DNA of 64,000 nt. Source: Flavobacterium sp. 1. GTDB taxonomy: Bacteria; Bacteroidota; Bacteroidia; Flavobacteriales; Flavobacteriaceae. Shown here in pieces: positions 9,160 through 64,000 of the stretch. Numbering within the stretch: the first letter of the stretch is position 1; every line of letters begins with the position of its first letter. The DNA is taken from positions 1,488,001 through 1,552,000 of the forward strand of contig NZ_PGER01000001.1 in NCBI RefSeq assembly GCF_002797935.1. The letters run 5' to 3'. The position numbers and the translations under genes were made by a program. Under the pieces are notes generated by a model that saw only the letters and a program-made list of their open reading frames with translations, ran no database searches and had not been told where the DNA came from.

Positions 9160-9921
9160 CTATAAAAACGCATTCCACAAAAAATTGTTTTTTCTTCTAT
9201 TGTTCTCCTCTTTATCATCACCATAATCGAACCATTCTTTCGTTTTTTCTTCAATTTCTTTCTTTAGACCCAATAAATCATAGGTTTTTTTAGCTGTGAT
9301 GGGTTTTAATTCGGAGGCTTTAGTCATCGACAAATCTACTTTGGTGGCTACAAATGAGGTGTATAATCTAGGAATTGAAAGCCCCAAAATCAAACCTGAC
9401 AATCCGTGAATAGAACAAGGACCTCCAGAAATGGTGATCTCATCGGTATAAAAAGCAAATACATAAACGTCGTCCATTATTTTGCCTACTGCTTTTCGGC
9501 AATTATAACCTGCTATTTCTCTGTTTTCGTTAGTGATTTTCCATTCAATATTTTGGATGCTGTCGGCTATCACAAAATTAGTACCTACTATTTGTTTTTG
9601 CATCATCATTTTTTTGGCTCCAAAATCAAAATACCAAGTGTTTTCTTCATCTTGATCTTTGTAGTATTTAGGAATTTTTGTTTTTGAACTCCATCGATCA
9701 AATTTGAAGATGCTTTTGTTGTCTGCAAAAGTATAGGTGTAATACGATATTTTTAGGTCAGAAAGGTTGTCTTTCATCATCTCATCCCAACTATCATTGC
9801 TCATTGTTTTTTTCAAATTCGTATTTACTTCATATTCAACTACCGCTTTTTCTATAAATTGCTGTGCTATTGCTGTAGTTGTAAAAATTAGTGTTGTAAG
9901 AATAAAAAGTATTGATTTCAT
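9160..9921 (-). CDS. GLPGLI family protein
   Basis: This 253-residue exported protein has a signal peptide ending IAQQ. The family hallmark appears as HGLSGLILGLSIPR around residues 172-185, preceded by the conserved AGYNCRKA cysteine motif and the YAF..YTDEI strand. GLPGLI proteins are periplasmic or outer-membrane-associated proteins of Bacteroidota with unknown biochemical role. They are often paired with a TonB-receptor-like barrel, exactly as here: the 927-aa barrel gene lies 42 bp upstream on the same strand. Confidence 0.88.
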   Translation of the reverse strand: MKSILFILTTLIFTTTAIAQQFIEKAVVEYEVNTNLKKTMSNDSWDEMMKDNLSDLKISYYTYTFADNKSIFKFDRWSSKTKIPKYYKDQDEENTWYFDFGAKKMMMQKQIVGTNFVIADSIQNIEWKITNENREIAGYNCRKAVGKIMDDVYVFAFYTDEITISGGPCSIHGLSGLILGLSIPRLYTSFVATKVDLSMTKASELKPITAKKTYDLLGLKKEIEEKTKEWFDYGDDKEENNRRKNNFLWNAFL

Positions 9922-9963
9922 ATGTTGCTATTTTTTATGGTCATTTTCGGAACAGTTCCTGAT

Positions 9964-47380: not shown

Positions 47381-47960
47381 TGATGCGATATCTCTTTCTC
47401 CTCTACAATAAACACTTCAATTCTGCCATTATCAGGAGTAAACTTAAAACTGTTAGACAATAAATTATAATATTTTGATCTATATATAATACCTCTAAGC
47501 CTTTATTATTTGTAGAAAAATAAAATTTTATATTTCTCCTTAAAGCCTCTCTTTCAAACTCTTTAACTATTTTTTTTTAAAAAATTATAAAGATTTATTT
47601 TTACTTGTTTTATAGTAAAATTTTTACTTTTTATTTTTCTAAAATCGAGTAATTGATTTATTAAACGAAGTAATCTTTTTAGAATTATTATACATTAAAT
47701 CTAAATCTTTTTTTACAGCATTATTTTTATTTTGAAATTCATGGGAAAGTCATGTGAAAAAATTAATTTTAGCTTCATTACTGATTTTTAATTTATTTGC
47801 GTATAATTCGATTTCATCTTTTTGGTTTCCAATTTTAATGTTTGTTTTTTCTAATTCTTTCTTTTTACTGCGCAGTTTTATACCCGAATAAATACTAAAC
47901 GCAGCCAGACCTAAGATTAATAAACTAAAATTAAGTTTCCTTTTCCAACCTTTTATTATA
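47381..47960 (-). pseudogene. Decayed sensor kinase related to the hybrid sensor
   Basis: Fragments in changing frames read a membrane segment and coiled coil (LNFSLLILGLAAFSIYSGIK), EAKINFFT, then LSHEFQN, LLRLINQLLDFRKIK, and KEFEREALRRNIKFYFSTNN. SNSFKFTPDNGRIEVFI follows at the HATPase N-box. These match the corresponding parts of the intact hybrid sensor next door (FFTGLSHEFKTPIT; NAFKFTPDNGKINIFI). The periplasmic, receiver and AraC parts are missing and several frameshifts are present. It is a dead paralog that meets the NHLP cassette at about 47931-47960. Confidence 0.7.
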
Positions 47961-49067
47961 ATTATCAATAAGTAAAGAAGCTCCATTTGCAGATGATAAT
48001 TCTTCTAAACTTGTTTCACAAAGAGCATCTATTCTGCACATTTGATCTAGATTTGATTGTAACTTTCCGCGAGTTTTATCAAAAATAGAAATATTTTCAA
48101 TTGCATTTTTAATTATTTTAATTAATTGTTTAAAGTCTCCTTGAGATAATTTATTGTCTAATAAATAATTTTCTAACCTTGCTCCTTGCCTATATTTAGG
48201 ATACTCTTCAAGTCCCATAAATATTAACATCCATGATTTATTGTAATGTCCAATAGTTTTTACAATTCCTATATAATCTGCAATTAACTCATCGTGCAGG
48301 TTATTTGATGCTACCCCGAATTTTTTAAGAGTGTATAGATGTGTACATTCGTGTTCTTCTCTTATCGAAATGGAATAGGATAACCATAAACTTTTATTCA
48401 AACCCAATTGCTTTGCCGCTACATTACTATAGGGTTTTGTGCTTAGAATAATTAATTTATCTTTATATAAGCTCTTATTTGGCAAAACATTACAAGAAAA
48501 CTCTTTGACCCAATTTTCAGAAGTGTTAGTTGTTAACCAATCGTTTTTTAAAATCATTAATCTCTCCCAGTTATTGATTCCATTGATTAATACTGCACCC
48601 ATAGATTGCGGAACATGTTTGGGGTTGTTTTTATATAATAGTGATTGTATAATTGTTGTGAAGTCTTCTTTATTTGGGACCGTTACTATTGGTATTTTAC
48701 CTGCAATACTTTTATGAATTTTAAAAGCTATATTTTTAGGATCGCTTAGCTTTAGTGAAAAAGGTAAATTTATATTTTCTGTTTTTCCCCTTAAAACTAT
48801 ATTTTTATAAAATTCTGTTTTTTCGATGCCAATTTCTATTGGAAAATTTAATTGAAGATAGCATTTTTTTAATTCATTAAATAATAATTTATCCGCAGTA
48901 ATTTTTTTTGCAAAATCTTCCCAGTATTTAATACCTATTTCATTTTCGAAAGGTGGTATTGTTTTTTTTGATTTAAAATTATTTGATAAGTAGGTTTTGA
49001 GTTCCTCAGAAAGATCAATATTAATGAGATGTTCTTCTTTTTTTAAAGGAGATGATTGATTTACCAT
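47931..49067 (-). CDS. Zincin-like HECTH protein of the NHLP cassette
   Basis: The 378-residue soluble protein has no signal peptide. Residues 236-243 read REEHECTH, a HExxH zinc-binding motif, followed by HDELIADYIGIV (258-269), which could supply a third ligand in zincin style. I recognise no named domain. The gene is 3 bp after the ABC transporter stop and shares the minus-strand orientation of the whole export cassette. A role in peptide processing or self-protection is inference; metal binding is suggested only by the motif. Its 3' end overlaps the decayed sensor. Confidence 0.75.
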   Translation of the reverse strand: MVNQSSPLKKEEHLINIDLSEELKTYLSNNFKSKKTIPPFENEIGIKYWEDFAKKITADKLLFNELKKCYLQLNFPIEIGIEKTEFYKNIVLRGKTENINLPFSLKLSDPKNIAFKIHKSIAGKIPIVTVPNKEDFTTIIQSLLYKNNPKHVPQSMGAVLINGINNWERLMILKNDWLTTNTSENWVKEFSCNVLPNKSLYKDKLIILSTKPYSNVAAKQLGLNKSLWLSYSISIREEHECTHLYTLKKFGVASNNLHDELIADYIGIVKTIGHYNKSWMLIFMGLEEYPKYRQGARLENYLLDNKLSQGDFKQLIKIIKNAIENISIFDKTRGKLQSNLDQMCRIDALCETSLEELSSANGASLLIDNYNKRLEKET

Positions 49068-49069
49068 TG

Positions 49070-51967
49070 TTAGGCAATTTGACGTTTAGCAAGTTCTGTA
49101 AACAAACCTTCCATTTGAATTAGCTCATCATAAGTTCCTGATTCTTTGATTTCTCCTTTTTCCAAAACAAAAATACGGTCAGCATTTTTTATAGTACTCA
49201 ACCTATGTGCAATAACTATGCGGGTAGCTTGAAGTTTATCTAAACTTTCTGCAACAATATTTTGAGTTTTATTATCAAGAGCGCTTGTTGCCTCATCCAT
49301 AAATAATAATCTGGGTTTATGAACAATTGCTCTGGCAATCATTAATCTTTGTCTTTGACCTCCTGAAAATGTACCTGCTCCTTCACTAATAAATGTATGC
49401 ATTTCCATTGGCATATTCTTTATGTCATCTTCCATACCAGCCATACGTGCTGCGGCCCAAGCATCTTCTAATGTTAATTCTGAATTACCAACAATATTTT
49501 GATAAATACTACCTGACATAAGCGTTCCATTTTGCAACACTACACCTATTTGTCGCCTTGTAAGTTCCTTATTCATTGCGTCAAATGTATTACCATCATA
49601 GAATATAGAACCTAACTCAGGGTGTTCAAAGCCTAAAAGAAGTCTCATAATTGTTGATTTCCCAGAGCCAGACGCGCCTACAAACGCAACCATTTCACCC
49701 GGTTTTATTTTAAATGTAACATTTTTTAAAATTAGCGGCTGATCTTCATAATATCTAAAAGATATAGAATTCAGTTCAATTTCACCCATTAATTCTCCTG
49801 GATCAATGCTTTCTTCAATCGATTCTGGTTTTTCTTCTAAAATTGGCCTTACTCTTTCGTACAAAGGAATAACGCTAAGTGAAGAAATAAATGCCATACT
49901 TAATCTTAAACTATCATTTAAAAATTTATTAAAGGAAATGATAAAAGCCATAAATGATCCTACAGATAACATTCCAGAATTTTGAGAATTTAAAACTGTA
50001 TAATATATAAATGAAAAAAATAATATACTTGTAAAAAGAGGATAAGAGCTATTAAAAACTTCTACAAAGTTTTGATAACTCCCCGAACTAAATCCTAATT
50101 TTTTTAATTTTGAAAACTTATCACCCCATAAAGAAAAAATTCTTTTTTCACCTCCGGTTATTCTTATTTTACTAATTCCAGATAAAAATTCGAAAAGGAA
50201 ACCTTGAATTTCTCCTTCGTATTTAGACACCTCTCGATCATACTTCAATTTTAGCCAGCCCATTAAAACCATAAAAGCAATAGCAATTAAAACAAGTCCA
50301 ACTCCTACCCATGCTAAACTCGAATCATAATAAAAGAGAAGTAATAAATTAACAAATGAGAATGCCCCACTAAGTACTACCGTCATAAGTGTATTAGAAA
50401 GGATTTGTCTAATTGAATTAATACTTAAAACTCTATTTGTGAGATCACCAGCAGTATATTTTTTATAAAAAGTTACAGGTAAGCGAAGTATATAATCCAT
50501 CACTCCGGCTTGTAGGTTAATACTTGATTTTGACTCTACTCTCATTTGTAGGACTCCTTGAGTAAGTTGCAGTCCGGCAGATACCAAACCTATAATTATC
50601 ATAATCGTAAAGATTTCTAAATGTATGGATTTATCTGCAGTTGGTATTACATCATCATATATCATCCCAGATAATACAGGAATTAATAAACCAATTAGAC
50701 TTCCGACTAAAGAAGCAATTAATAATAGTTTCGCGTCTTTTTTCACACCATTCATAGCGAAACTTAATACTTTTTTTATGGAATCCATTTTTATATCAAA
50801 TCCAGAAAAAAACATATAACCTATAGGATTTAAAGATTCGGCTATTTCATTATTAACAACAGTTTCAGTTCCTTTTGAAAGATTTTTGATTATGTAAGTT
50901 GTAGAATTTTGCTGTATAAGAGCAACAGGCTCATCAGACTCTTTTATAAATGCTAATAAATGCCCATTTTCATCTTTCCACCACACATCTCTCAAAATAA
51001 TTTTTCGTATTCTTACTTTAGAACTTTGAGCAATAGCATATAGCAGATTGTTTGCGTTATGTATATCTGACTCAAAATGTTTTGGCTCTTCACATTTAAA
51101 GCCAGCATGTTCTCCAATTAATTGACATGTTAAATACAGTATGTTTTGCTTTTTATTATTCGTGCGATGTAATTTTTTTTTACTACCCGTAACTATAGAT
51201 TTTATTTTTTCTAAAGTGTTTTTTAATTCTTCTTCCTGATGAATTAATTTATCATTTAGGTTATTGTTTTCGAACAAACTATTGATCTCAATATTTTTGC
51301 AAAGCTGATTGTAAAAATAAGCTTGTAATTTTTCTAAGGAAATTAAAAAATTAATTTCATCTTCTAAAACTTCTCTGGTACTTATCAATTTTAATTCAGA
51401 AAATTCAGACATTGATTTAACCCATAACTTATTACAAACAGGAATTGGAAATTTAAGGGTATCGTCAGAGTTAATTGTTTCCTGTTCTGAGAAAACGGAA
51501 AGTTGTCCATGAATTAAACTTACCCAATTTATTCCCTGAGAAGGGTATGCTATAGTGTTTTGATTTAAAATAAAATCATTATAGTTCTCTAACGTGCTGT
51601 AAGATTTTGGAGCATTACTTGAATTAATTTTAAATGAAGTTTTTAATATCCATTTATCAATCATACCTTTTAGAAAGAAATGATCTATAGTAATGAGTTC
51701 GTGTTTATTTATAGATAGTAAATTAGCTTCGTTAGAAAAAACAATTAAACGAATATCATCCTTACAGTCAGGAGATAGTAAACTAAATAATAAGTCCCCT
51801 TTTTTTGCAGAGTAAAGATATTTTAACGCGCATAAATATTCTCCTTTTTCATCAACTCTAACATAAAACACATTAACTTCACCAGAAACCACCATCCAAA
51901 ATTTGTCTGAACTATTTAGTATCAATGGTTCTTCAACTCCTATACCTATTTTATCTTTCGTTGACAT
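49070..51967 (-). CDS. NHLP-type bacteriocin export ABC transporter (ABC2)
   Basis: The 965-residue protein fits the NHLM_micro_ABC2 architecture: a long N-terminal region (about 1-400, KFWMVVSGEVNVFYVRVDEK near the start) that does not resemble C39. A membrane domain follows (about 400-690; LLIASLVGSLIGLLIPVLSG), then a nucleotide-binding domain with Walker A FVGASGSGKSTIMRL, signature TFSGGQRQRL and Walker B LLFMDEATSALD. It should export a modified peptide together with the peptidase ABC protein. Spacing to that gene (51978) is 10 bp. Confidence 0.88.
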   Translation of the reverse strand: MSTKDKIGIGVEEPLILNSSDKFWMVVSGEVNVFYVRVDEKGEYLCALKYLYSAKKGDLLFSLLSPDCKDDIRLIVFSNEANLLSINKHELITIDHFFLKGMIDKWILKTSFKINSSNAPKSYSTLENYNDFILNQNTIAYPSQGINWVSLIHGQLSVFSEQETINSDDTLKFPIPVCNKLWVKSMSEFSELKLISTREVLEDEINFLISLEKLQAYFYNQLCKNIEINSLFENNNLNDKLIHQEEELKNTLEKIKSIVTGSKKKLHRTNNKKQNILYLTCQLIGEHAGFKCEEPKHFESDIHNANNLLYAIAQSSKVRIRKIILRDVWWKDENGHLLAFIKESDEPVALIQQNSTTYIIKNLSKGTETVVNNEIAESLNPIGYMFFSGFDIKMDSIKKVLSFAMNGVKKDAKLLLIASLVGSLIGLLIPVLSGMIYDDVIPTADKSIHLEIFTIMIIIGLVSAGLQLTQGVLQMRVESKSSINLQAGVMDYILRLPVTFYKKYTAGDLTNRVLSINSIRQILSNTLMTVVLSGAFSFVNLLLLFYYDSSLAWVGVGLVLIAIAFMVLMGWLKLKYDREVSKYEGEIQGFLFEFLSGISKIRITGGEKRIFSLWGDKFSKLKKLGFSSGSYQNFVEVFNSSYPLFTSILFFSFIYYTVLNSQNSGMLSVGSFMAFIISFNKFLNDSLRLSMAFISSLSVIPLYERVRPILEEKPESIEESIDPGELMGEIELNSISFRYYEDQPLILKNVTFKIKPGEMVAFVGASGSGKSTIMRLLLGFEHPELGSIFYDGNTFDAMNKELTRRQIGVVLQNGTLMSGSIYQNIVGNSELTLEDAWAAARMAGMEDDIKNMPMEMHTFISEGAGTFSGGQRQRLMIARAIVHKPRLLFMDEATSALDNKTQNIVAESLDKLQATRIVIAHRLSTIKNADRIFVLEKGEIKESGTYDELIQMEGLFTELAKRQIA

Positions 51968-51977
51968 ATTTTAATTT

Positions 51978-54176
51978 TTATTTTGTTTCAATCAATTTTG
52001 CATAAACACCATTTAGTTTTAATAATTCTTTATGAGAGCCTCGTTCTACGATTTTGCCAAACTCCATTACTATTATCTCGTCACAGTCCATTATAGTGCT
52101 TAATCTATGGGCAACAATTAAACAAGTACATCCTCTTTTCTTAATATTATCCATCACAATTTTTTCTGTGGTAGAATCTAATGCGCTGGTAGCCTCGTCC
52201 ATAATTAAAATTGTAGGGTTGCAGACTAAAGCTCTGGCAATTTCAATTCGCTGGCGCTGTCCTCCACTAAAATTCGAACCGCCTTCTAATACAGAGCTTT
52301 CATATCCATCATTTCTAGCTGCAATAACATCATGAATGTCAGCATCTCTTGCTGAATTTATAATGTTTTTTTCAGGAATCATGGTGTCCCAAAAAGAAAT
52401 ATTTTCTTTAATAGTACCATTAAACACCAGGACTTCCTGGTCTATTACCGCTAATGATTCTGTAATGATATGTCTGGGTATACCTGCTCTATTTTTATTA
52501 TCAAGTAAGATATCTCCTTCCCATGGATCATAAAGTCCCGAAGCTATCCTTGCAACGGTTGACTTTCCGCTCCCAGAACCTCCAACTAATGCCACTCTGC
52601 TTCCGGGTCTTAATTTTAAATTAAAGTTTTCTATTAATGCAGGCATGGTCCGACTGTATCCAAAAGTCACATTCTTCATTTCGAAGTATCCAATCAATTT
52701 GTTATTAATAAATTGATTCTTTGTCTTTTGGATATTTTCATCTTCATTGTCTATAAATTGTTTGTCAATTTCATAGTTCATTACATCATCAATGCGTGCC
52801 ATATCGCTTTCTGTTTCGTGCAGCATGGCTCCTACTGATACAAGTTGGTTTACCGGAGTAATAAAATTATTCATTAAAAAAGTAAAAGCAACTAAAGTTC
52901 CTAAAGTCATTTCTCCTTCCATTATCCTTAATGCACCAATTCCTAATATTAAAGTATTTGTTAAAGATGAAATTAGATTTGGAAGTATATTAAGCCTTAT
53001 TGTCAACCATCCAAATTCTTGTTGAGCATTCATTACTTTAGCCAAATATCCTATCCAATTAGTAAAAAAATCATTTTCTCTACCAGAGGATTTTAATGTT
53101 TCAATCATACTAATTCCCGAGGTTGTAGTACCTAATAACTTTCCCATTTCATTACTTAATCTTCGACTTCCGTCTTTTCTAGCTGTTGAAACATACCTTA
53201 AGGCGACAACATTTAGTGCTGCCATAAAAACACCAATTAAAGTCAGGGTAACATCATAGGAGAACATTAAAATTGCATAAAAAATCACAACAATAACATT
53301 TAATGCAGCGTTGGCTAAATCCCCACTTAACAGTTTTGCTACTTTATCATTTAATGAGACTCGATTACCTATTTCGCCACTGTATCTTTGAGTAAAAAAA
53401 GCAATTGGTAAATGAAAAACATGCCAAAGAAATTTACTGGAAGTTACCAATGCAAGTTTTGTTTCTAATTTAAGTAAAAAGTATTGCTGGAGATAAACTA
53501 AAGAAGCATTAACAATTAGAACTACACCCATAATTAGTAAAAGAGGCATTACAAAACCTGAGAAATTATTAATTAAATATTTATCTATAAATATTTTAAG
53601 GAATGAAGGAATTACTAAACCAGGAATTACTAAAAACAAGCTTGCTATAACAATGTAGATAACACTTAACTTAGAATTAGCAATTCTTGAAATCAAAGAT
53701 GATTTTAATCCTTTTTTATGATTTCCTTTTTCAAATTCTGTTGAAGGACTAAAGGTTAAAACCACACCTGTATAAGAATCGTCAAATTCATTATGACTCA
53801 CATAATACCTCCCTTGTGCCGGGTCACTAAGGTAGACTCTCTTTTTTGTAAAACCCTCCAGAACTAAAAAATGGTTAAAATTCCAGAAGATAATCGATGG
53901 AGTTTCTAATTGCATTAGTTTTTCAATAGATTTAGCATATCCTTTTGCTTCTAATCCATACTCTTTAGCAGCTTTTAAGATATTAGTAGCTTTCAATCCA
54001 TCTCGTGATACCCCACAAGCTATTCTCAATTTTTCTAATGGAACAAACTTGCCAAAATGTCCTAAAATAATACTTAAAGCTGCAGCACCACATTCAACGC
54101 TTTCCATCTGTAAAACAGTCGGCACTTTGACAGGTTTAGCTTGTTTTTTTATAAGTAAGTTTGTGTTATTTTTCAT
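51978..54176 (-). CDS. NHLP-type ABC transporter with C39 leader peptidase
   Basis: The 732-residue protein starts MKNNTNLLIKK; an upstream TTG at 54188 is possible. The N-terminal C39 peptidase (about 10-135) has the catalytic Cys in LQMESVECGAAAL, His in FNHFLVLEGF and Asp in YLSDPAQG. This type cuts the leader, usually after a double-glycine motif, during export. Membrane domain and nucleotide-binding domain follow, with Walker A LVGGSGSGKSTVAR, signature NFSGGQRQRI and Walker B ILIMDEATSALD. It overlaps the HlyD gene region by a few bases. Confidence 0.9.
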   Translation of the reverse strand: MKNNTNLLIKKQAKPVKVPTVLQMESVECGAAALSIILGHFGKFVPLEKLRIACGVSRDGLKATNILKAAKEYGLEAKGYAKSIEKLMQLETPSIIFWNFNHFLVLEGFTKKRVYLSDPAQGRYYVSHNEFDDSYTGVVLTFSPSTEFEKGNHKKGLKSSLISRIANSKLSVIYIVIASLFLVIPGLVIPSFLKIFIDKYLINNFSGFVMPLLLIMGVVLIVNASLVYLQQYFLLKLETKLALVTSSKFLWHVFHLPIAFFTQRYSGEIGNRVSLNDKVAKLLSGDLANAALNVIVVIFYAILMFSYDVTLTLIGVFMAALNVVALRYVSTARKDGSRRLSNEMGKLLGTTTSGISMIETLKSSGRENDFFTNWIGYLAKVMNAQQEFGWLTIRLNILPNLISSLTNTLILGIGALRIMEGEMTLGTLVAFTFLMNNFITPVNQLVSVGAMLHETESDMARIDDVMNYEIDKQFIDNEDENIQKTKNQFINNKLIGYFEMKNVTFGYSRTMPALIENFNLKLRPGSRVALVGGSGSGKSTVARIASGLYDPWEGDILLDNKNRAGIPRHIITESLAVIDQEVLVFNGTIKENISFWDTMIPEKNIINSARDADIHDVIAARNDGYESSVLEGGSNFSGGQRQRIEIARALVCNPTILIMDEATSALDSTTEKIVMDNIKKRGCTCLIVAHRLSTIMDCDEIIVMEFGKIVERGSHKELLKLNGVYAKLIETK

Positions 54177-54184
54177 TTGATAGA

Positions 54185-55447
54185 TCAATATAGGTCAAAA
54201 AATTTCTTAAATGCAGGAACAACTAGTGTTACAGGAGGCTCTTGTTTGATCGTAATTTTACCTAAACAAGATGTGCCTTCTTTCAGAAAAATATCGGGAC
54301 CTTTAGCAGAAGTCCATTTATAACCACTATACGATACAGGGTCCTTTTCAAAATCGACGTAAACCTCAAACAAAGGACCACCTACTAAAAGTTGCTTTGT
54401 AAGTTGATCATTTTTAACTGAGGTTAGCATTCCTTGCTGGGTTATCGGGAAATCAGATACATACGTTACTTTCCCTTTTATAAAACCATATTCTTCAGGC
54501 TGCACGGTCGAAGGTACAATTAGAGCTTCCATTCCTTTTTTAATTTTTTTACCATCTTTGGAAGGGATATAAAGAATTCCTCTTAGTTGTGATTGTTTTG
54601 TGTTAAGTGTATTTTTAAGTTTAAATAATGGAGATCCAGCTGATACTACAATTCCGGCATCGGTTAAAACTTCAACTACTTCTCCGTCATAAGGGCTTTT
54701 TACATTTCTTTGATTGTCATATTTTTCAGTTAAAAACTGAAGATTTCTTGCAGCTTCTGCAATTCTTTGTCTTTGTAATGTAACTTTCTGTTGTATATCA
54801 AATCCCAAATTATTTTGTTGACTGGATGTTTCTACGATTTGTCCTTTTAATCTTTCGATTGTGTTTTTTGCAGCCTCTATCTGTTGTTTTGTATTTGCAA
54901 CTTGAGATTTAGTTATTAAACTTTTATCAAGAAGTATATTCTCTGATTCCAATTGATTATTCAGAAATGCGATTTTCTTTTTTTCTGATTCGATTTCGCC
55001 TGTAATACTTACACGTGATTGACTAATTATTTGACCTTGTAATTGAGCGCCTTGATTTCCGTAAGACGTTAGCTTTTCCATTTCAAATTTTCTGTCTGAC
55101 AATACCACTTTTGCATCTTCTATTTGTTGAAATAGTTCTGGTTGTCGTATTGTAGCTATAATATCTCCTTTTTTAACGTTATTACCTATGGCTATTTTTA
55201 ACTCTACTAATTGTCCTTGTGCAGTAGCAACTACTTCATGAACGTCTCCACCTAATACAACTCCAACTACATCTAACTTTGTTTTTACGGTACCCATAAA
55301 TGACCACATTAAGGCTGTAAAAATTGCCACTATAATTGTAATTAGAGCTATCCAGGCTTTTGTCCCGGTAACCTTAATCAACTGATCCAATTTTTCTGGA
55401 GTAGAAAGTTTCTCTAATGCCGATTTTCTAAAAAAAGATGCTGACAT
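54185..55447 (-). CDS. NHLP-type HlyD secretion adaptor
   Basis: The 420-residue membrane-fusion protein has one N-terminal membrane helix (ALITIIVAIFTALMWSFMGT). A biotinyl-lipoyl-like part contains VVGVVLGGDVHEVVATAQGQ, then a long coiled coil (about 110-250; EIESEKKKIAFLNNQLESEN) and SPYDGEVVEVLTDAGIVVSA on the other side. It connects the inner-membrane ABC transporters to the TolC-like channel. Spacing to the TolC gene is 12 bp. Confidence 0.88.
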   Translation of the reverse strand: MSASFFRKSALEKLSTPEKLDQLIKVTGTKAWIALITIIVAIFTALMWSFMGTVKTKLDVVGVVLGGDVHEVVATAQGQLVELKIAIGNNVKKGDIIATIRQPELFQQIEDAKVVLSDRKFEMEKLTSYGNQGAQLQGQIISQSRVSITGEIESEKKKIAFLNNQLESENILLDKSLITKSQVANTKQQIEAAKNTIERLKGQIVETSSQQNNLGFDIQQKVTLQRQRIAEAARNLQFLTEKYDNQRNVKSPYDGEVVEVLTDAGIVVSAGSPLFKLKNTLNTKQSQLRGILYIPSKDGKKIKKGMEALIVPSTVQPEEYGFIKGKVTYVSDFPITQQGMLTSVKNDQLTKQLLVGGPLFEVYVDFEKDPVSYSGYKWTSAKGPDIFLKEGTSCLGKITIKQEPPVTLVVPAFKKFFDLY

Positions 55448-55459
55448 AATTTATATATT

Positions 55460-57025
55460 TTAATTTTCTGTGTTAGGAATAGTATAAAATGCATTTTGAG
55501 TAATTTTAAACCCAAGGTTCTCTTTAGAAATAAGAGTCCCGGTTTCATGTCTAAGAATTAGTATTGCATTTGAAAATTGTTGCTGTGCGTTTAAATTCTG
55601 TAATTCTGAAGAAGTAAGTCTTTCTTGAAATATCATTAAATTTAAAAGAGTTGTCAAACCTGCCTGAAACTTTATCTGTTCATTATTATATGCATTTAGA
55701 CAAAAACTAAAAGCTTCTTCTGATTTTTTAACAATTAGAGCATTATTAATCAGGTTATTAATAGCTATATCAATATTCAATTCAATATTTCTATGAGTGT
55801 TTTCATTTATTGTGGATTGATTTTGCAAAGCGATTTTACTTATTGAATAATTCCCTTTTGCCAGATTGTTATTCAGTGGAAAAGAAAATGTTAGTTTAGC
55901 TCCACCTCCTAAATCCTGACCTTGATGGTTAATAAGAGAAGACCATGATTTTTCAACACCATTTCCAACACTTGCACTTCCATAAAAAGCAAATGCTGAT
56001 AAATTTAATTGAGGCTTTAGATTGTTTGTTGCTACCAAGTATTGAAGCTCTATTGCTTTATATTCTTCTTCAATTGCCTTTACATCAGCTCTATTATCCT
56101 TAGCAATTTTAATAAGTGCATCTTTATTAATAGTACCATCATACCCAGATTCTAAAATAGTTGGAAAGTCATTAATAGGAATATCCAATCTTTGACTCTC
56201 CTCATCGATTAAACCTATAACCCGTCCTAAATTTAATCGTGTATTATATAGATCTTGTTTTGCAGCAGCGGTTAACCTTTCCTGATTGCTTAAATCGGCA
56301 TTGACTTGAGCTAAATCACTTTCTGGTTTTTTATCAGCTTTTACAAGTTCAATAGTCATATTTAATACCTCTCTTACCCTATTTTCATTTTGAATATAAA
56401 TTGCCAGACTCTTATACGAAGTATAGTAATTCCAATAGGCAATACCAATTTGTTCAATTTCATAAGAATTGGTAAATTCAGAATCATATTTACTTTTATT
56501 AATATAAAAAACAGAAGCTTTTTCTAACGCTGTAGTTATCTTTGCTCCCCTTCCTCTTAAAAGAGGTTGAGTTAATTGAAGATTAACAGTGCTAAAATGA
56601 TTACCATAAAAAGGGCCAACAAACTCATTAAAATTGTTATATGGATAATTACTATCGTTATAATTATAATTTAAACTTACATCTGCTATTTGTCCGGAAC
56701 GTAATTTTTTTTGTAAGCTTGTTGAAACATCTAATGAATTATTTCTTAAAGCTTTATCGACGTATTTATTTCTTGGATCAGCAGTAAAAAGATTGTATTT
56801 ATCATTTTTATATGCAATTTCAGAATTTAAGTTAAAATCAAAAATACTTTTTTGAATTTGGAAATTAGCTTCGGCATTATCGATAGAGTAATTAGCAATT
56901 TTAATATTTGGATTTTTATTAAATGCGATACTTGAAACCTCTATTAAATCGCACTTAATTTTAGACTGACTATATAAAATAGTACTACTAATCAATAAAA
57001 TGCAAAACAAAAAGTAATTCCTCAT
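55460..57025 (-). CDS. TolC family outer-membrane channel
   Basis: The 521-residue protein has a signal peptide (LFCILLISSTILYSQ) and the two repeated helical-barrel halves of the TolC family. Visible are LQLTQPLLRGRGAKITTALE with coiled-coil helices (residues about 155-260) and the second half RADVKAIEEEYKAIELQYLV, ending LILRHETGTL. It supplies the outer-membrane exit for the exported peptide. Gaps to the adaptor and the CNB gene are 12 and 9 bp. Confidence 0.9.
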   Translation of the reverse strand: MRNYFLFCILLISSTILYSQSKIKCDLIEVSSIAFNKNPNIKIANYSIDNAEANFQIQKSIFDFNLNSEIAYKNDKYNLFTADPRNKYVDKALRNNSLDVSTSLQKKLRSGQIADVSLNYNYNDSNYPYNNFNEFVGPFYGNHFSTVNLQLTQPLLRGRGAKITTALEKASVFYINKSKYDSEFTNSYEIEQIGIAYWNYYTSYKSLAIYIQNENRVREVLNMTIELVKADKKPESDLAQVNADLSNQERLTAAAKQDLYNTRLNLGRVIGLIDEESQRLDIPINDFPTILESGYDGTINKDALIKIAKDNRADVKAIEEEYKAIELQYLVATNNLKPQLNLSAFAFYGSASVGNGVEKSWSSLINHQGQDLGGGAKLTFSFPLNNNLAKGNYSISKIALQNQSTINENTHRNIELNIDIAINNLINNALIVKKSEEAFSFCLNAYNNEQIKFQAGLTTLLNLMIFQERLTSSELQNLNAQQQFSNAILILRHETGTLISKENLGFKITQNAFYTIPNTEN

Positions 57026-57034
57026 ATTTGAGCC

Positions 57035-57574
57035 TTAATAATTAACACTTAACTTAACTTCGGAAAATTTATTTAATATTTGACCGAAACGCGCACCTGC
57101 CTGAGAAACCACATCTAATACTTTTGTATCAATTAAATCCTCTTCTTCAGGAATCCCATATCCCAAACGATCTGTTGTTTTTCTTAACCTATTAGAAAGA
57201 AACAATGCTAGTGAGTAATAAAAATTAGCTTTAAAATCTGAATTTGAAGAAAGTCTTGCTTCTATTGCGTTTCGAGATATTTTATAAATTACGGATGTTT
57301 TTTTTGAAATAACAGAAACTGAAGGAGGTCTGGATTCTAAGAAAGACATTTCACCTACAACTTCTCCTGCTCCAAGAAGAGCAACTTCCTGTCCGTCAAT
57401 TCCATCTGAATAAATAGACAATTGACCTGATAGTAAAATGTATAAATTATCTACATAATTTCCTTTCTGGATCAGTGTTTCTCCAGTTTTTAATTCTATT
57501 TTTTGGCCATTCTGGATCATCCATTCCAGGTCTCTGTCATCTAATTGGCCTAAGAAAAAAAGCACTCGTTTCAT
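57035..57574 (-). CDS. Cyclic-nucleotide-binding domain protein without HTH
   Basis: The 179-residue protein has a single beta-roll (about 15-125; NGQKIELKTGETLIQKGNYV, LYILLSGQLSIYSDGIDG, GEVVGEMSFLESRPPSVSVI), with the phosphate-binding cassette region GEMSFLESRPPS. The C-terminal helices lack an obvious DNA-binding helix-turn-helix. It is the first gene of the export operon and could gate transcription or act as a protein switch. The ligand is not deducible, because the usual phosphate-contacting Arg occurs as ESRPPS in a slightly altered setting. Confidence 0.78.
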   Translation of the reverse strand: MKRVLFFLGQLDDRDLEWMIQNGQKIELKTGETLIQKGNYVDNLYILLSGQLSIYSDGIDGQEVALLGAGEVVGEMSFLESRPPSVSVISKKTSVIYKISRNAIEARLSSNSDFKANFYYSLALFLSNRLRKTTDRLGYGIPEEEDLIDTKVLDVVSQAGARFGQILNKFSEVKLSVNY

Positions 57575-57798
57575 AATATATATTTTTAAGGTTATGGTTA
57601 TTTAATTATGCTTTATTTTAAAAAAATCATTAAAGAATTTTATAGACTTTGATAATCAGTAATAACTTTATAGTGCATATCAACCGTACATTAATACAGC
57701 CAAAATTATTCTCGTTTAATTCAATATCTTTTTAAAGTAGGTTTAAAGGAATTCTATATAAAATTCTGCATTTGGTGAATACTTTTTATCAGACTCTT

Positions 57799-58452
57799 TT
57801 AGGCTAATGAGTTTATTAATGCTTTGGGTGATATATCATATTGATTACTGAACAATTTTGAAAAATAATGGGAATCATTATATCCAACAGAATAAGAAAC
57901 TTGAGAAATGGAATCTTGAATATAATTATCGATTAGCTGCTTTGCTTTATGCAACCTTAATATGCGTATGTATTTATTAGGAGTTAAGTAAACTAAATTT
58001 GCAATTTTTCTATGAAGCTGTCTTTCACTTACAGCCATTTTACACGATAAATAATACAAATCAAGATCATCCTTAGAAATGGAATTATAAATTTCTTTTT
58101 CTAAGTTTATTAACCAATTTTGGTCGTTTTTTGTAACTTTTTCTGGAGTGATCTTATTGGAGCATAAATGCTGAACATTCTTATTTGATTCATAAATATC
58201 AAAAATATCAGGTCGGCTTTGTATTGTTAAGCTTACTGATTTAGATTTAATTTCATTTAATATTTCCTCTATAAGATCATTAATTTCATTACTACTAGAA
58301 AAAATAATTTCATTTTTAACCTCGTTTCCAGATGTGCTAGGTGTACTAGCTGTAATAATAGAATCTAATGGACTTTTTATATGTAAGAATAGATGATTTA
58401 AAATATCTGGTGAAGACCAATCTATTGCAGTTTTCTTTGCTGTTGTATTCAT
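57799..58452 (-). CDS. AraC-type regulator with a DHp-like, His-less N-terminus
   Basis: The 217-residue protein ends in an AraC/XylS DNA-binding domain (about 125-215; MAVSERQLHRKIANLVYLTP, ISQVSYSVGYNDSHYFSKLF). The N-terminal part (residues about 15-75) reads LFLHIKSPLDSIITAS and later SSNEINDLIEEILNEIKS. It resembles a HisKA dimerisation/phosphoacceptor helix (S-H-E-I-R-T-P-L), but the His position is replaced (F-L-H-I-K-S-P-L). It may dimerise or contact a kinase without being phosphorylated there. It lies 224 bp upstream of the CNB gene. Confidence 0.8.
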   Translation of the reverse strand: MNTTAKKTAIDWSSPDILNHLFLHIKSPLDSIITASTPSTSGNEVKNEIIFSSSNEINDLIEEILNEIKSKSVSLTIQSRPDIFDIYESNKNVQHLCSNKITPEKVTKNDQNWLINLEKEIYNSISKDDLDLYYLSCKMAVSERQLHRKIANLVYLTPNKYIRILRLHKAKQLIDNYIQDSISQVSYSVGYNDSHYFSKLFSNQYDISPKALINSLA

Positions 58453-59180: not shown

Positions 59181-59843
59181 CTATATCATTTGTAATAATC
59201 TACACTCACGCAAAATGTCTTCGTCATTGCCTTTATCAATTCCTAAAATATCTTTTATTTTACTTTTGCGTTTTTTAACAGTGTCTTCCGAAACTTTTAT
59301 AGTGTTTGCAATGGTTTTTATTTGACATCCTTTAGAAATAAGTGTTATGATTTGGCGGTCAACACTATCAAAATGACCTTCGGCTAACAAGCGTTCAGTT
59401 TTTGCCTTTTTAGCAGTTTTACTAAAATAGCTTTCACCAGTCATGATTTTTTCATAAGCTAACAACAATTCTTCATCGTCGAAATCAGTTTTGACCATAA
59501 TTCCGTTGACATGAGTTTTTTGATAAATATTGTACAAAATAACACTTTCAAAATGCGAAGTAATAATTAATGTTTTTGCACCAGGAATATATTTGTGAAC
59601 TAAAAGTGCTAAATCACCACCATTAAAAATGTCCTTTTCAGGGAAAGATGGTAAACTATAATCTAGCATTACCAAATCAAAAGGAATTGGTTTGGTTTCA
59701 TTTGAAATACAATCATAAGCAGCCTTACAATTGTTTGCAGAATAAAACTCTAACTCATGCCCTAACTTATTGTGAGAGAGAATGGTTTGATATCCAGTAA
59801 TCATTGAAGAATGATCTTCAACTATTAGTATTTTTTTTGTCAT
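59181..59843 (-). CDS. NarL/LuxR-type response regulator
   Basis: The 220-residue regulator has a receiver domain (about 1-125: acidic start KKILIVEDHSSM, phosphoacceptor Asp in DLVMLDYSLPSFPE, ITSHFES, and MVKTDF in place of KP). A LuxR helix-turn-helix follows (about 155-215; QIITLISKGCQIKTIANTIK, then VSEDTVKKRKSKIKDILGID). It is 6 bp downstream of the TPR kinase, its probable partner. It is the best candidate to bind the TTTACACTT operators nearby, which is inference. Confidence 0.9.
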   Translation of the reverse strand: MTKKILIVEDHSSMITGYQTILSHNKLGHELEFYSANNCKAAYDCISNETKPIPFDLVMLDYSLPSFPEKDIFNGGDLALLVHKYIPGAKTLIITSHFESVILYNIYQKTHVNGIMVKTDFDDEELLLAYEKIMTGESYFSKTAKKAKTERLLAEGHFDSVDRQIITLISKGCQIKTIANTIKVSEDTVKKRKSKIKDILGIDKGNDEDILRECRLLQMI

Positions 59844-59849: not shown

Positions 59850-61904
59850 TTAAAACTCAAAACTATTGAATTCTATTGGAATTGACAAATTTATTTTTGT
59901 ACCTATATTTTGTTTCGATTCTATAGAGAATTGTCCCTTAAGTTCCATTGCGCGATGATTCATGTTTTTTAATCCAATTCCTTTTTTTGCTTGCGTTAAA
60001 TCAAAACCTTTACCATTGTCGGCAATTTGAATACTTATACCTGTTTCACTTTTAGCAATTGCAATTGTTATTATATAAGCATCGGCATATTTATTGATGT
60101 TTTGTAATGCTTCTTGAAAAACTCTGTAAAGATTCATTTTTACATTTATATCGACCAACGACCAGTCTATCCTTGGATCAATTGCTATATTTATTTTAGT
60201 TATTGGATTATTGTTTAATTCCGTGAATAATGCTTTTATCGTTGTTTCAAAATCATCAGATCCTGAAAAAACATTCGTATTCAGTTCGTGTGTCAAATTG
60301 CGGATTTCTTCTTCAATATTTTTCATCTCAGCAATATGTTCCAAATATTTTTTTATTGATTCTGGTGATTGACTATATTTTATTTCGTACAAATTCATAC
60401 GTATTGCCGACAATTTTCCAATTATCCCGTCGTGCAGGTCTCTAGAGATTCGTTGTTTTTCGATAAGTTTGCCTTCTTCCATTTTTTGCTGATTTGAAAG
60501 CATCAAATTATAAATTTGCGAATCGTTTAAAGCTTGTTCTTGTTTGCGAAACAATTTTTCAAGTTTGATGTTATTGTTTTTGCGATATAAAATAATTAGC
60601 AATAATAATAATACCAAGGCACTCATGATAGCGTATAAAATGAATTGTTTTGAGATTTCATTCTTTTTATTCTCAGCTATTATTTTTTCCTGGATTATTT
60701 GGTCGGTTTCAAATTCTATTCGGGCATATTTATTACGAGAAGTACGTTCTACATCTTGAAGACTATCTTTAAGATATATGTATTTATTTGTATAATAGAA
60801 TTCGTTTTGAGGACTTGCGAGGGTTAATAATTTAAGGATTGTGAGTTCGTCTTCAAAAAGATTATTTTTACGTGCCTGTAGTAGCGCTTCTTTCAAATAG
60901 TAATTAGCTATTGAATAGTTTTTTTGATTTAAATAATATTCTCCTAAATAAGTTTTGGAGGTAATCTGAACAGGAATATTATTTATTCTGTCACCAATTT
61001 TCAAGGTTTCTTCAAATTGTTTTAATGACGATTTGTTACCCAGTTTAAATTTAGAATAAGCAAGTTTATTGGTAAGATAACAATAAATTGGAGGGTCAAC
61101 TTTTTTGAAATTTGCTATAGCTAACCCTTGTTTTGCAAATGCGATAGCTTTTTCATATTCTTGCGTTTTTACATATATATTAGCAATATGATTGTAGGGC
61201 TGGCATTTATAAGATAAATAATTTGAATTTGATTTTAATTTTTCAGAAATTTCAATAGCTTTGTTGTAATAATCTACAGCTTTTTCGTAATTATCCAGAC
61301 CTACTAGTGTACTTCCTAAAGTGAGATAACAATTGTAAATCAGCAGATTGTTTTTTTTTTCAATGCCATATTTTAATGCTTCAATCGCCAATTTTTCAGC
61401 CCCTACATAGTCATTTTTAAAAGATAATATTTCTGCTTTCCATATCTTTACATTACCTAATAAATTCTCATTTTTTTCTTTTAAAAGGACCTTTTCTGAT
61501 TTTGTAAAGTAATAATAAGCCGAATCATATTTTGTTTCTTTATTATAAACAATTGCAATACTGTAGCTTGCATTTTGAATACCTTCGTTATCATTTAATA
61601 AAATTGATTTTTGATACAGCTTTTGCAGTAAGTGTATACATTTTTCACTCTCGCCAAGTTGAAAAAATGAATCCGCCAATTCAAAATAATAATCAGATGA
61701 CATCACTAAAGTGTCATTTTTTTGAATAATTTCAGAAGCTAATAACGCCTTTTCTAACCTTTCTTCTTTAGTTATGTTTTTGTATGTCGAAGTTGAAATC
61801 AACGAATCTAAATTATTAGCGTTTGAAGTGTAAGAATTTTGATTTTTACGCTCGCATCCAATAAAAAAAATACTAAAAATAAATATTGTTGTAAATAGTT
61901 TCAA
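59850..61904 (-). CDS. TPR-containing sensor histidine kinase (HisKA_3)
   Basis: The 684-residue protein starts with a TTG codon; the upstream in-frame TAA rules out an earlier start. It has a lipoprotein-like signal (IFSIFFIGCERKN). About eight TPR-like helical repeats follow (about 60-390; SYSIAIVYNKETKYDSAYYY, YLTLGSTLVGLDNYEKAVDY), then a membrane helix near residue 425-445 and a HisKA_3 region (RISRDLHDGIIGKLSAIRMN). The HATPase shows GISIQIADNGKGFDLTQAKK and GIGLKNMNHRAMELKG. The outside TPR domain probably senses a peptide or protein partner. Confidence 0.88.
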   Translation of the reverse strand: MKLFTTIFIFSIFFIGCERKNQNSYTSNANNLDSLISTSTYKNITKEERLEKALLASEIIQKNDTLVMSSDYYFELADSFFQLGESEKCIHLLQKLYQKSILLNDNEGIQNASYSIAIVYNKETKYDSAYYYFTKSEKVLLKEKNENLLGNVKIWKAEILSFKNDYVGAEKLAIEALKYGIEKKNNLLIYNCYLTLGSTLVGLDNYEKAVDYYNKAIEISEKLKSNSNYLSYKCQPYNHIANIYVKTQEYEKAIAFAKQGLAIANFKKVDPPIYCYLTNKLAYSKFKLGNKSSLKQFEETLKIGDRINNIPVQITSKTYLGEYYLNQKNYSIANYYLKEALLQARKNNLFEDELTILKLLTLASPQNEFYYTNKYIYLKDSLQDVERTSRNKYARIEFETDQIIQEKIIAENKKNEISKQFILYAIMSALVLLLLLIILYRKNNNIKLEKLFRKQEQALNDSQIYNLMLSNQQKMEEGKLIEKQRISRDLHDGIIGKLSAIRMNLYEIKYSQSPESIKKYLEHIAEMKNIEEEIRNLTHELNTNVFSGSDDFETTIKALFTELNNNPITKINIAIDPRIDWSLVDINVKMNLYRVFQEALQNINKYADAYIITIAIAKSETGISIQIADNGKGFDLTQAKKGIGLKNMNHRAMELKGQFSIESKQNIGTKINLSIPIEFNSFEF

Positions 61905-61990: not shown

Positions 61991-62152
61991 TTATTTTTTT
62001 GGTGGGATTATGCTACCAGAATTATTTGGGTCAACATCAGCTTGAACTTCGGCTTGAGCTTTAGGTTTGTCAGTTTCAATTTCGTCTGCAGTACAAGAGT
62101 TTAAAGTGGCTAGCAGTGATATAATCGCGATAATATAATAAAAATGTTTCAT
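61991..62152 (-). CDS. Tiny lipoprotein, 53 aa
   Basis: From ATG 62152 the product is MKHFYYIIAIISLLATLNSC, with a lipobox ending in Cys, then an acidic tail TADEIETDKPKAQAEVQADV and a proline-rich end (SGSIIPPKK). Similar 'SCTADE'-type short lipoproteins occur near TPR kinases in Flavobacteria, with no known function. An upstream frame extension to 62200 adds no signal. It lies 86 bp upstream of the kinase gene, and site B drives it. Confidence 0.7.
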   Translation of the reverse strand: MKHFYYIIAIISLLATLNSCTADEIETDKPKAQAEVQADVDPNNSGSIIPPKK

Positions 62153-62264
62153 GGTGTTTTTGGTTTTGTTAGAAAATATTTGTTTTAGCAACAGCTTCAT
62201 AATAGTCGTTGCATTATTAAAAAAATGCTTTTCAGGAATTCCTCGTATTTGTAATATTACATAA

Positions 62265-62323: not shown

Positions 62324-62491
62324 ACCTACTTTTTATTGTATTCCTCTTTTGAAAATAGTTTAGCTATTTATGGAAACAATATCCTTTTACGAAAACGTAG
62401 CCTTGACTTGATAAATCACCAATAAAAATGGGATCATTTAATCACTATCATTAGTAATAAGAAAAGTTTAGCTTTTTATTCATCTAATAGT

Positions 62492-62545
<54 letters not shown>

Positions 62546-62802: not shown

Positions 62803-62961
62803 CTTAAAGAAGTTTCGACTCGGGCTTTTACTATACGTGAAATTGCAAAAGAAATATTTGTTTCGCCGGATGCTGTAAAATTTCACAGAAGAAAACTTTT
62901 TGAAAAATTAGAAGTAAATAATATTTCAGAAGCTATTGTTTTGCAACCAGCAATAAGCTGA
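62803..62961 (+). pseudogene. LuxR-type DNA-binding domain remnant
   Basis: The frame reads LKEVSTRAFTIREIAKEIFV, SPDAVKFHRRKLFEKLEVNN and ISEAIVLQPAIS, then TGA. This is the LuxR/NarL helix-turn-helix with its recognition helix. There is no start codon or receiver domain in frame and the upstream sequence is degenerate, so the gene is truncated. It resembles the C-terminus of a NarL-type regulator, but on the opposite strand from the active one. Confidence 0.7.
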
Positions 62962-63009: not shown

Positions 63010-63204
63010 CTAACGAATCCGTTTGAAAATTATTTTTTTAGTTTCATTTGCTTGAATGATTAGATATTTTTTATTTATTTCATATTTTCCTTTCAGTAAT
63101 GTTACCATTTGTGATTCTACGGGTTCATCAAACGTACTGGGCTGAACAATAAATTGCGTTCCCAAGATTTTTGCAAAGGCATACGAAAGAATCATTGTTG
63201 CCAT
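63010..63204 (-). CDS. Small unrecognised ORF
   Basis: The 64-residue frame starts MATMILSYAFAKILGTQFIV and ends with a lysine-rich tail (QANETKKIIFKRIR). It follows the LanM-type stop by 84 bases on the same strand. It shows no cyclase motif (no LanC zinc ligands) and no leader-like acidic pattern. It may be a gene fragment or spurious. Confidence is low. Confidence 0.35.
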   Translation of the reverse strand: MATMILSYAFAKILGTQFIVQPSTFDEPVESQMVTLLKGKYEINKKYLIIQANETKKIIFKRIR

Positions 63205-63288
63205 TTAATAGCGACAAAACGTGTATAAGTAGTAATGTTTTTTTTCAATTCCATAAAATTAATTTTTCAATCTTTTGCTTCTTTTTAA

Positions 63289-64000
63289 TTAAAGTTTAAC
63301 CGAATCCGTAATCAGCATTATTTGATTCTCAAAATCTTCTATGCTTGCATTTTTAACTTTATTGTGTATATTTTCTATAGCACTGCATTTTATTAAATCC
63401 ATGCTTTTTTTATTGGGTAAATTGATACGGTTATCTAAAGCCTTAATATAAAATACAGGAATATCATCTCGTAACATTTGTTCTCGCTCCGCATCTAATA
63501 TGGGGCCGCCATTATCAAAAGCTATGTATGCTTTTGCTAACATCTCCAGTTTTATTCCATACTTGATGGAATCAGCCAAATATTCCTGCTTATTTAGAAA
63601 TTTTAAAATCTTAGCGTACACTTTTGTGTGGCGGTTGACAAAACGAATTTTGGAACTATAAAAATTAGTAATGGGAGAATATTCAGACTGCAGATGTTTT
63701 TTGTTTTTCAAAATTAAATTGTACAACTTTTGAAACCCTGTCTTAAACTCTTTTTCATATTCTGCAAGATTTACAACTGAATCGTTCAAAAAAGGCTTAT
63801 TTAATTTGTACAGTTTTTTCGTCTCCATTTCAGAAATCACTTTCATGGAATCTTTATTCACATCTTGAATTTTTGAAATTGGGAAATCAGACTCTAACAT
63901 TTTTGAAGAACCAAATCCGTACATATAATAGGGCAAATTTAAATGTCTTGTCGGGAGCAGTGATGCCTCAAAAATTGATCTAAAAATAGCACTCTGTGAT
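63289..64000 (-). CDS. LanM-type DUF4135 dehydratase, C-terminal part
   Basis: The open frame continues past 63936 to the window edge, so the visible part is about 237 residues. Key matches to the class II lanthipeptide synthetase dehydratase domain are EASLLPTRHLNLPYYMYGFG, IRFVNRHTKVYAKILKFLNK, ILDAEREQMLRDDIPVFYIK (the GDIPxF-type segment) and the final DFENQIMLITDS. It ends right after the dehydratase domain, where a LanC-like cyclase domain normally follows in LanM. The enzyme would dehydrate Ser/Thr of a precursor peptide; the upstream half is outside the window. Confidence 0.8.
   Translation of the reverse strand, partial: SQSAIFRSIFEASLLPTRHLNLPYYMYGFGSSKMLESDFPISKIQDVNKDSMKVISEMETKKLYKLNKPFLNDSVVNLAEYEKEFKTGFQKLYNLILKNKKHLQSEYSPITNFYSSKIRFVNRHTKVYAKILKFLNKQEYLADSIKYGIKLEMLAKAYIAFDNGGPILDAEREQMLRDDIPVFYIKALDNRINLPNKKSMDLIKCSAIENIHNKVKNASIEDFENQIMLITDSVKL

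Follow-up and report, generated by a model that had tools for sequence, protein, structure and literature searches.

A Flavobacterium NHLP export locus with several precursors and a dehydratase-only LanM enzyme, predicted to make linear dehydropeptides

LanM-like enzymes have been described together with double glycine precursors in several settings. Haft et al. (2010, PMC2887384) report, in the accessible part of the paper, gene clusters that combine NHLP leaders, a transporter recognized by TIGR03794, TIGR03796 and TIGR03797, and a LanM-like enzyme; Cys-less NHLP peptides beside LanM are stated there presumably to remain dehydrated. LanM relatives without a cyclase are already known singly. 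According to the accessible text of PMC9505594, PoyF of the proteusin polytheonamide is a LanM dehydratase domain of this kind. It works on a precursor with an NHLP leader, acting a single time, at the N-terminal Thr, in a pathway with many further maturases. EmbM of phospeptin is the sole maturase of a double glycine precursor with a Nif11-type leader; the available excerpts of PMC9259500 and PMC9505594 describe it as lacking the residues critical for elimination and leaving phosphothreonine. A proteusin cluster from Kordia is shown in the accessible portion of a survey of 2,680 Flavobacteriaceae genomes (PMC10734526). Here we analyze a window of 64,000 nucleotides (contig positions 1,488,001-1,552,000) from the 5.35-Mb single-contig genome of Flavobacterium sp. 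1, together with the DNA that adjoins it. It carries a locus which we consider likely to be a multi-peptide proteusin (NHLP) system, whose dehydratase-only LanM would make linear dehydropeptides. Dehydration of the peptides and any bioactivity are predictions from sequence.

The locus resembles that of PoyF in a LanM dehydratase domain without cyclase and in NHLP leaders, a likeness of architecture and neighborhood, PoyF being known to us by description only. However, the dehydratase is here the only recognized peptide-modifying enzyme, and it is accompanied by several short precursors, an NHLM operon and an adenylate cyclase. With the class II lanthipeptide synthetases LicM2 and CylM it has the dehydratase fold and nine catalytic residues in common, but it lacks the C-terminal LanC domain. 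EmbM is comparable as a sole cyclase-less LanM-like maturase, whereas the elimination residues of the window enzyme are intact. The clusters of Haft et al. share the leaders, the transporter and a LanM-like enzyme with our locus, but the cyanobacterial DUF4135 relatives that we fetched keep the LanC domain except one (L041), while one clade from Bacteroidota lacks it throughout. No description of this clade was found in the accessible parts of the literature on cyclase-less LanM and NHLP systems. With PoyF and EmbM already known, the clade is a variant of that kind.

Dehydratase, precursors and export operon in one locus

The dehydratase, precursor and export genes are listed below in window coordinates. 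Of 33 kb fetched past the right window edge, the first 13 kb were also read as locus L002, where the window-equivalent position equals L002 + 57000.

63289..64000, on to 65169, minus strand: dehydratase-only LanM (DUF4135) gene, 3' part in the window (PF13575; TIGR03897 positions 2-519 of 932)
65314-65631 (L002 8314-8631), minus strand: NHLP precursor G2 (TIGR03793)
65707-66024 (L002 8707-9024), minus strand: NHLP precursor G1 (TIGR03793)
66065-66397 (L002 9065-9397), minus strand: NHLP precursor A (TIGR03793)
66764-68770 (L002 9764-11770), minus strand: TPR and class III adenylate cyclase gene (PF00211, E 1.5e-54)
68826-69152 (L002 11826-12152), minus strand: NHLP precursor B (TIGR03793)
57035..57574, minus strand: single cyclic-nucleotide-binding-fold (CNB) protein (PF00027, E 4.2e-19; TIGR03896, E 4.9e-33, below cut-off)
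55460..57025, minus strand: TolC-type outer membrane channel (PF02321, E 8.4e-33)
54185..55447, minus strand: NHLM HlyD-type periplasmic adaptor (TIGR03794, 308 bits, cut-off 156)
51978..54188, minus strand: NHLM ABC1 with C39 leader peptidase, permease and ATPase (TIGR03796, 1039 bits, cut-off 853; PF03412, E 6.8e-38)
49070..51967, minus strand: NHLM ABC2 permease/ATPase (TIGR03797, 856 bits, cut-off 709)
47931..49067, minus strand: DUF7005, putative cytoplasmic zinc metallopeptidase with HExxH...E (PF22541, E 9.5e-125)

The six genes from CNB through TolC, HlyD, ABC1 and ABC2 to DUF7005 run from 57574 down to 47931, with gaps of 2, 10, -4, 12 and 9 bp counted from DUF7005 to CNB, and 224 bp separate CNB from an AraC gene. 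TIGR03794, TIGR03796 (with the C39 domain) and TIGR03797 all scored above their cut-offs. The six genes make up a complete NHLP/NHLM export operon, and DUF4135 is part of the same locus. Profile matches recovered every gene that the first-pass annotation had named in this tight minus-strand run, including the AraC gene beside it; the 'HECTH protein' of that annotation is DUF7005, HECTH being its HExxH motif. The end of a DUF4135 dehydratase that had been read at the window edge, on the same strand, is likewise real, and the gene is complete beyond the edge (626 amino acids, aa; L002 6289-8169; window-equivalent end 65169). Between it and the export run lie, in the order approaching DUF4135, AraC, a response regulator, a TPR histidine kinase and a small lipoprotein-like open reading frame (ORF), of which the last three are not mentioned in that annotation.

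A total of four genes with NHLP leaders were found upstream of DUF4135, 1.3-5.2 kb beyond the window edge and all within 3.8 kb. The precursor had thus been rightly expected outside the window, and a precursor-like ORF directly adjoins the DUF4135 gene. Three of the four score above the TIGR03793 cut-off of 50.9 (58.3, 58.3 and 53.8) and the fourth falls just below it (49.4). A scan of the 5.35-Mb genome for NHLP leaders, at E up to 1, gave no precursor besides these four. Their leaders comprise 88-89 residues and all end in AGG, and the cores comprise 17-21 aa. G1 and G2 have an identical core after AGG, QFNLEILWTGICIGWGN, with one Thr and one Cys, and differ over 318 bp by five synonymous and no amino-acid changes. 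The core of precursor A is QTVWSDLVNSLFPTLKDYIKI and that of precursor B is DGDITPPIIIKPNNFSGDIF; Cys is missing from two of the four cores. The adenylate cyclase gene sits between B and A, and the gaps from B towards DUF4135 are 55, 366, 40, 75 and 144 bp. Beyond B, transposase-like fragments were identified by eye only (L002 12340-13047).

An intact dehydratase active site and no cyclase

The LanM profile TIGR03897 is matched from position 2 only as far as position 519 of 932, so only the dehydratase half is present. Alignment to CylM showed that all nine catalytic residues of that enzyme are present, namely, as given in the accessible text of PMC4550811, the kinase residues K274, D347, H349, N352 and D364 and the elimination residues D252, H254, R506 and T512. 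The latter correspond to D260, H262, R509 and T515 in the window enzyme. All nine are invariant in 49 of the 49 cyclase-less rows of our dehydratase alignment (A2, chosen from 99 matches). An AlphaFold model of the enzyme (predicted local distance difference test, pLDDT, 90.6) has LicM2 (E 3.8e-27) and CylM (E 1.0e-24) as structural matches. These observations bear on a kinase-only system like phospeptin, in which the enzyme would leave phospho-Ser/Thr. Such a system shares the architecture of a cyclase-less LanM and a double glycine precursor, but the elimination residues reported as lacking from EmbM are invariant here, and we regard this explanation as highly improbable.

Relatives were collected with a profile of the cyclase-less enzymes (A2), which led to 79 loci from GTDB genomes among the matches listed. 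We compared 26 loci, comprising 23 Bacteroidota loci with a LanC-free DUF4135 frame, the window's own locus, and L120 and L121 from Flavobacteriaceae; L117, L118 and L119 were left out as apparent repeats of L010 (Flavobacterium sp. 270), L017 (F. limi) and L029. In a tree of 103 rows, all 26 cyclase-less Bacteroidota enzymes form one clade among full-length LanMs, with a Shimodaira-Hasegawa-like approximate likelihood ratio test (SH-aLRT) support of 100 by a quick method. Two further cyclase-less rows (L041 and P0099) fall elsewhere in the tree, and two fetched Bacteroidota DUF4135 genes carry LanC (L063 and L073). Recent truncation of a normal LanM was rejected as an origin of the window enzyme, given that the clade spans several families and the catalytic residues are invariant in all 49 aligned rows. 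Nor is a small ORF that lies downstream of DUF4135 a remnant of LanC, as had been considered; it is what remains of a DoxX-like gene.

The first-pass annotation had called the system lanthipeptide-like. A LanC protein elsewhere in the genome was rejected too: the LANC_like profile PF05147 gave no match in the 5.35-Mb contig at E 0.001, while Deinobacterium chartae, the positive control, gave a match. The stretches fetched for the 23 cyclase-less loci from Bacteroidota likewise gave no LanC-profile match. With no LanC domain in the enzyme and no LANC_like match in the genome, the lanthipeptide label is unsupported, and a linear dehydropeptide is the best reading; in addition, the four precursors offer two cores without Cys and one, present twice, with a single Thr and a single Cys. 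In databases, many of these enzymes carry the name 'type 2 lanthipeptide synthetase LanM', which would predict the wrong chemistry.

True lanthipeptides could still arise if the Cys of W-T-x-x-C reacted with the dehydrated Thr three residues before it, either spontaneously or with the help of an unrecognized or trans-acting cyclase, to give a one-ring methyllanthionine peptide. A LANC_like match is present in 12 of the 26 cluster genomes, above cut-off in 10. However, LanC is lacking throughout the enzyme clade, and in 9 of the 10 genomes over the cut-off (G179, G388, G604, G605, G606, G611, G612, G613 and G615, but not G602) the LANC_like gene has a class I LanB no more than about 6 kb away, so these cyclases look like parts of separate systems. 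G179 additionally has a full-length LanM on another contig. The cores supply further points on both sides. Taking L002, L009, L010 and L011 together, 10 genes lie nearest the dehydratase, and 8 of them encode W-[TS]-x-x-C; S-C-x-x-x-S-C cores are found in L065, L069 and L120; but both L011 copies have Ser in place of that Cys, and 68 of 111 distinct cores contain no Cys. Taken together, we judge a lanthipeptide unlikely.

Several LanB genes were also observed. The window's own genome, without a LANC_like match, encodes a LanB N-terminal protein (738-aa frame, contig 3764824-3766773) 2.2 Mb from the locus. Two Chryseobacterium loci, L016 (4364-7399) and L011 (14283-17424), combine the cyclase-less LanM dehydratase with an adjacent class I LanB; the LanB of L016 matches PF04738 and PF14028, and that of L011 is in two pieces (PF14028, and PF04738 at the matching place of G598). 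No LanC-profile match was found in these two fetched stretches. Pfam scans of the genes taken as real, from DUF7005 to the first precursor, contained no radical SAM family, so that the epimerase and C-methyltransferases of a polytheonamide-type pathway are not seen there.

For the preferred reading, a linear dehydropeptide, we propose that the 626-aa enzyme, guided by the leader, would phosphorylate its cognate core QFNLEILWTGICIGWGN on Ser/Thr, probably on the Thr that follows Trp; the intact active site suggests that phosphate would then be eliminated to give dehydrobutyrine. No LanC cyclase would act, and the product would stay linear or close one ring non-enzymatically. Judging from their families, the C39 domain of ABC1 would cut after Gly-Gly while the core leaves the cell through ABC1/ABC2, HlyD and TolC. 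The A and B cores, which flank the adenylate cyclase, would probably be exported with little or no dehydration. A role in interbacterial antagonism or signaling appears likely.

Core peptides and co-occurrence across relatives

The 26 loci were found by means of the enzyme itself, and the presence of DUF4135 in them is by selection. NHLP genes occur in 25, the exception being L016, which has little sequence upstream of the enzyme. An NHLM ABC gene lies near DUF4135 in 22, the window's own included, and in the remaining four (L011, L016, L032 and L072) the sequence breaks off at an end of the stretch or contig. The TPR-adenylate cyclase was found in 19 loci, CNB in 20 and an AraC match in 21, again counting the window; in L027, L032 and L082 the AraC match is on the opposite side of DUF4135. 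The gene order in Flavobacterium is B, adenylate cyclase, A, variable precursors, DUF4135, regulators, AraC, CNB, TolC, HlyD, ABC1, ABC2 and DUF7005. The order differs in L012, L059, L079 and L121, with the transporter and DUF7005 upstream of the precursors. In L121 a UDP-glycosyltransferase-like gene adjoins DUF4135.

Among 299 Flavobacterium genomes, NHLM ABC2 was found in 6, DUF4135 in 8, DUF7005 in 11 and NHLP leaders in 13 (above cut-off in 6). Five of the eight DUF4135 genomes have cyclase-less frames of 503-648 aa; the other three (G528, G532 and G580) have long open frames of 916-1014 aa, by which alone they were judged full-length. All five of the former, and none of the latter, are among the six NHLM ABC2 genomes, with both genes on the same contig. 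The nominal probability of this co-occurrence is 3e-10, assuming independent genomes, which those of one genus are not. The earlier proposal that NHLP-type export and the LanM-like dehydratase belong to one system, for which co-occurrence in other genomes had been named as a check, is upheld by the TIGR matches and these counts. The sixth transporter genome, G529 (L111/L134), has the same order of B, adenylate cyclase, A and precursors, and a JmjC cupin gene but no DUF4135. Here the cupin replaces the dehydratase, so that tailoring enzymes are exchanged within one export framework. In a family-wide sample, also of 299 genomes, DUF7005 and DUF4135 are present in the same three.

Five further DUF7005 genomes of Flavobacterium (L112-L116) carry a reduced set of ThiF-, LuxR- and FeeM-like genes, assigned by eye from likeness to L117, with a core-less NHLP gene and DUF7005. 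No transporter was found in the 20 kb fetched for each, and NHLM ABC2 was absent in the genome-wide search. These loci may be remnants or a separate system. L135 (G565, 8993-10002) has a lone B-type precursor beside a short piece of the adenylate cyclase gene, and the 20 kb fetched contain nothing else of the locus; the pair of B and cyclase may be the last to be separated. The gene contents of G529, L112-L116 and L135 are given by the top profile per frame only.

A total of 139 NHLP frames were collected. Core borders were set by the Gly-Gly pattern, and after 15 frames without a clear double glycine or of a divergent CNB-side type were dropped, 124 cores remained, 111 of them distinct. Of these, 68 are free of Cys, 42 have both Cys and Ser/Thr, and 7 have no Ser/Thr. 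The A and B cores each recur in 16 loci. They are unlikely to be the main substrates because they recur across enzyme subclades and some members lack Ser or Thr. The cores nearest the enzyme fall into other types. W-[TS]-x-x-[CS] cores occupy this place in L002, L009, L010 and L011 (W[TS] in 10 of 10 genes), and S-C-x-x-x-S-C cores form a second type. The third consists of hydrophobic, Gly/Ala-rich core pairs, mostly starting x-T-P (xTP), in 11 loci. In the two genes nearest DUF4135 in these loci, counted by position and by eye, position 3 is Pro in 22 of 22 and position 2 is Ser/Thr in 18 of 22. In the xTP group as picked by pattern, by contrast, Pro at position 3 is a matter of construction.

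The enzyme-adjacent core types largely follow the dehydratase subclade, and the A and B cores do not. Core labels set by hand on the enzyme tree require 5 changes, compared with a mean of 13.8 when the labels are shuffled, and none of 200 shuffles was as low. Genera are mixed, with Flavobacterium in all three core groups and Chryseobacterium in two, and xTP pairs are not confined to the main xTP clade, being present in L082 and L121 as well. This pattern may also arise from linked inheritance, for which the A and B cores provide an internal contrast. In G529, without dehydratase, the corresponding pair begins EIV and EFI, in keeping with a match of enzyme and core; L079, which has the enzyme but nearby cores without xTP, weighs against it.

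The exported peptides might be unmodified, bacteriocin-like or pheromones, with DUF4135 acting on something else. The conserved cores flanking the adenylate cyclase that lack Ser/Thr in some genomes agree with this, as do G529, with the same transporter, cyclase and precursors but a cupin for DUF4135, and the hydrophobic paired cores, which we take to resemble two-peptide bacteriocins. On the other hand, precursor genes directly precede DUF4135, core type tracks enzyme subclade, and Ser/Thr prevails at position 2 of the enzyme-adjacent xTP peptides; we rate this explanation as very unlikely.

The dehydropeptide reading extends to a broader, tentative proposal. Across Bacteroidota, the loci could represent a class of secretion systems for dehydropeptides that work without a LanC cyclase. 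Release of variable dehydrated peptides would be controlled by the adenylate cyclase, whose gene is flanked by those of two conserved signal peptides that stay essentially unmodified. W[TS]xxC cores, SCxxxSC cores and xTP pairs, the last as two-peptide membrane-active agents, would each have co-evolved with a dehydratase subclade of their own. Stand-alone LanM dehydratases of one clade, encoded beside their natural substrates of three core types, would be a source of enzymes that form dehydroalanine and dehydrobutyrine without cyclization, and would reveal what cyclase-free dehydropeptides do. For DUF7005, for the CNB proteins found in NHLP operons and for a class III cyclase whose gene lies among precursor genes, the locus also suggests roles that can be tested directly.

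Nucleotide genes, DUF7005 and regulators

Of 20 aligned adenylate cyclase frames, 18 retain the Asp pair for metal, the Lys and Asp of the adenine type and the Asn/Arg residues; the remaining two belong to a second, different cyclase that L059 and L121 carry. The phosphate-binding cassette of the CNB protein is atypical in 21 of 21 aligned rows. Speculatively, the two proteins may tie production or export to a nucleotide signal.

H239, E240, H243 and E260 of DUF7005 are invariant in 45 of 45 aligned rows, the window's own included (alignment A3, drawn from the best 120 of 322 matches). An AlphaFold model (pLDDT 81) places HExxH in a helix at 225-250 and E260 in the next helix at 257-272, the mark of gluzincins. 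Structural matches of the model are weak, also as regards a thermolysin-like catalytic fold. DUF7005 might act in the cytoplasm as a gluzincin-like peptidase, trimming or recycling leaders. It is also found in the stretches of five cyanobacterial LanM loci (L068, L075, L080, L086 and L087).

The genes and remnants between the export operon and the dehydratase are as follows.

57799..58452, minus strand: AraC-type regulator (PF12833, E 1.1e-15)
59181..59843, minus strand: response regulator with LuxR-type output (weak matches; PF00072, E 1.9e-6, below cut-off)
59850..61904, minus strand: TPR-containing sensor histidine kinase (HATPase_c, HisKA_3, TPR_12)
61991..62200, minus strand: small lipoprotein-like ORF (signal and lipobox Cys by eye; ends IIPPKK; no Pfam match)
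62809..62937, plus strand: LuxR-family regulator remnant (81% identity over 43 aa to the LuxR gene in the equivalent position of L117; PF00196, E 1.6e-9)
63013..63270, minus strand: DoxX-like gene remnant, N- and C-terminal pieces only (72% over 53 aa and 65% over 31 aa of a 300-aa gene)

We examined 19 gaps between DUF4135 and the export genes; in 8, all from relatives, a LuxR-type regulator and a FeeM-like acyltransferase are present. One representative of each was scanned, from L117 (LuxR, PF00196, E 1.8e-18; FeeM-like, PF21926, E 1.5e-5, just below cut-off). The window instead has the kinase and response regulator pair, with homologues at the same place in L111 and L120. The small lipoprotein-like ORF is kept directly before the kinase in both (58-67% identity) and is probably paired with it. 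The DoxX-like gene follows the dehydratase gene in F. ajazii. Since LuxR and DoxX-like fragments are kept in the window, the regulatory module has probably been replaced.

A trinucleotide repeat, TAG/CTA, of 19.7 copies lies at 62488-62545, upstream of the lipoprotein, kinase and regulator genes, and could vary in length and tune expression. A divergent NHLP gene with the conserved core end TDYESLYDSL....K precedes CNB in L009 (15341), L010 (14467), L013 (15361), L017 (15418) and others. It occurs in many loci with the FeeM-like acyltransferase, is absent from the window, and is a possible acylation substrate. Downstream of the operon, at 43855-46593, the window encodes a hybrid two-component protein of 912 aa with a periplasmic sugar-binding sensor, kinase, receiver and AraC output.

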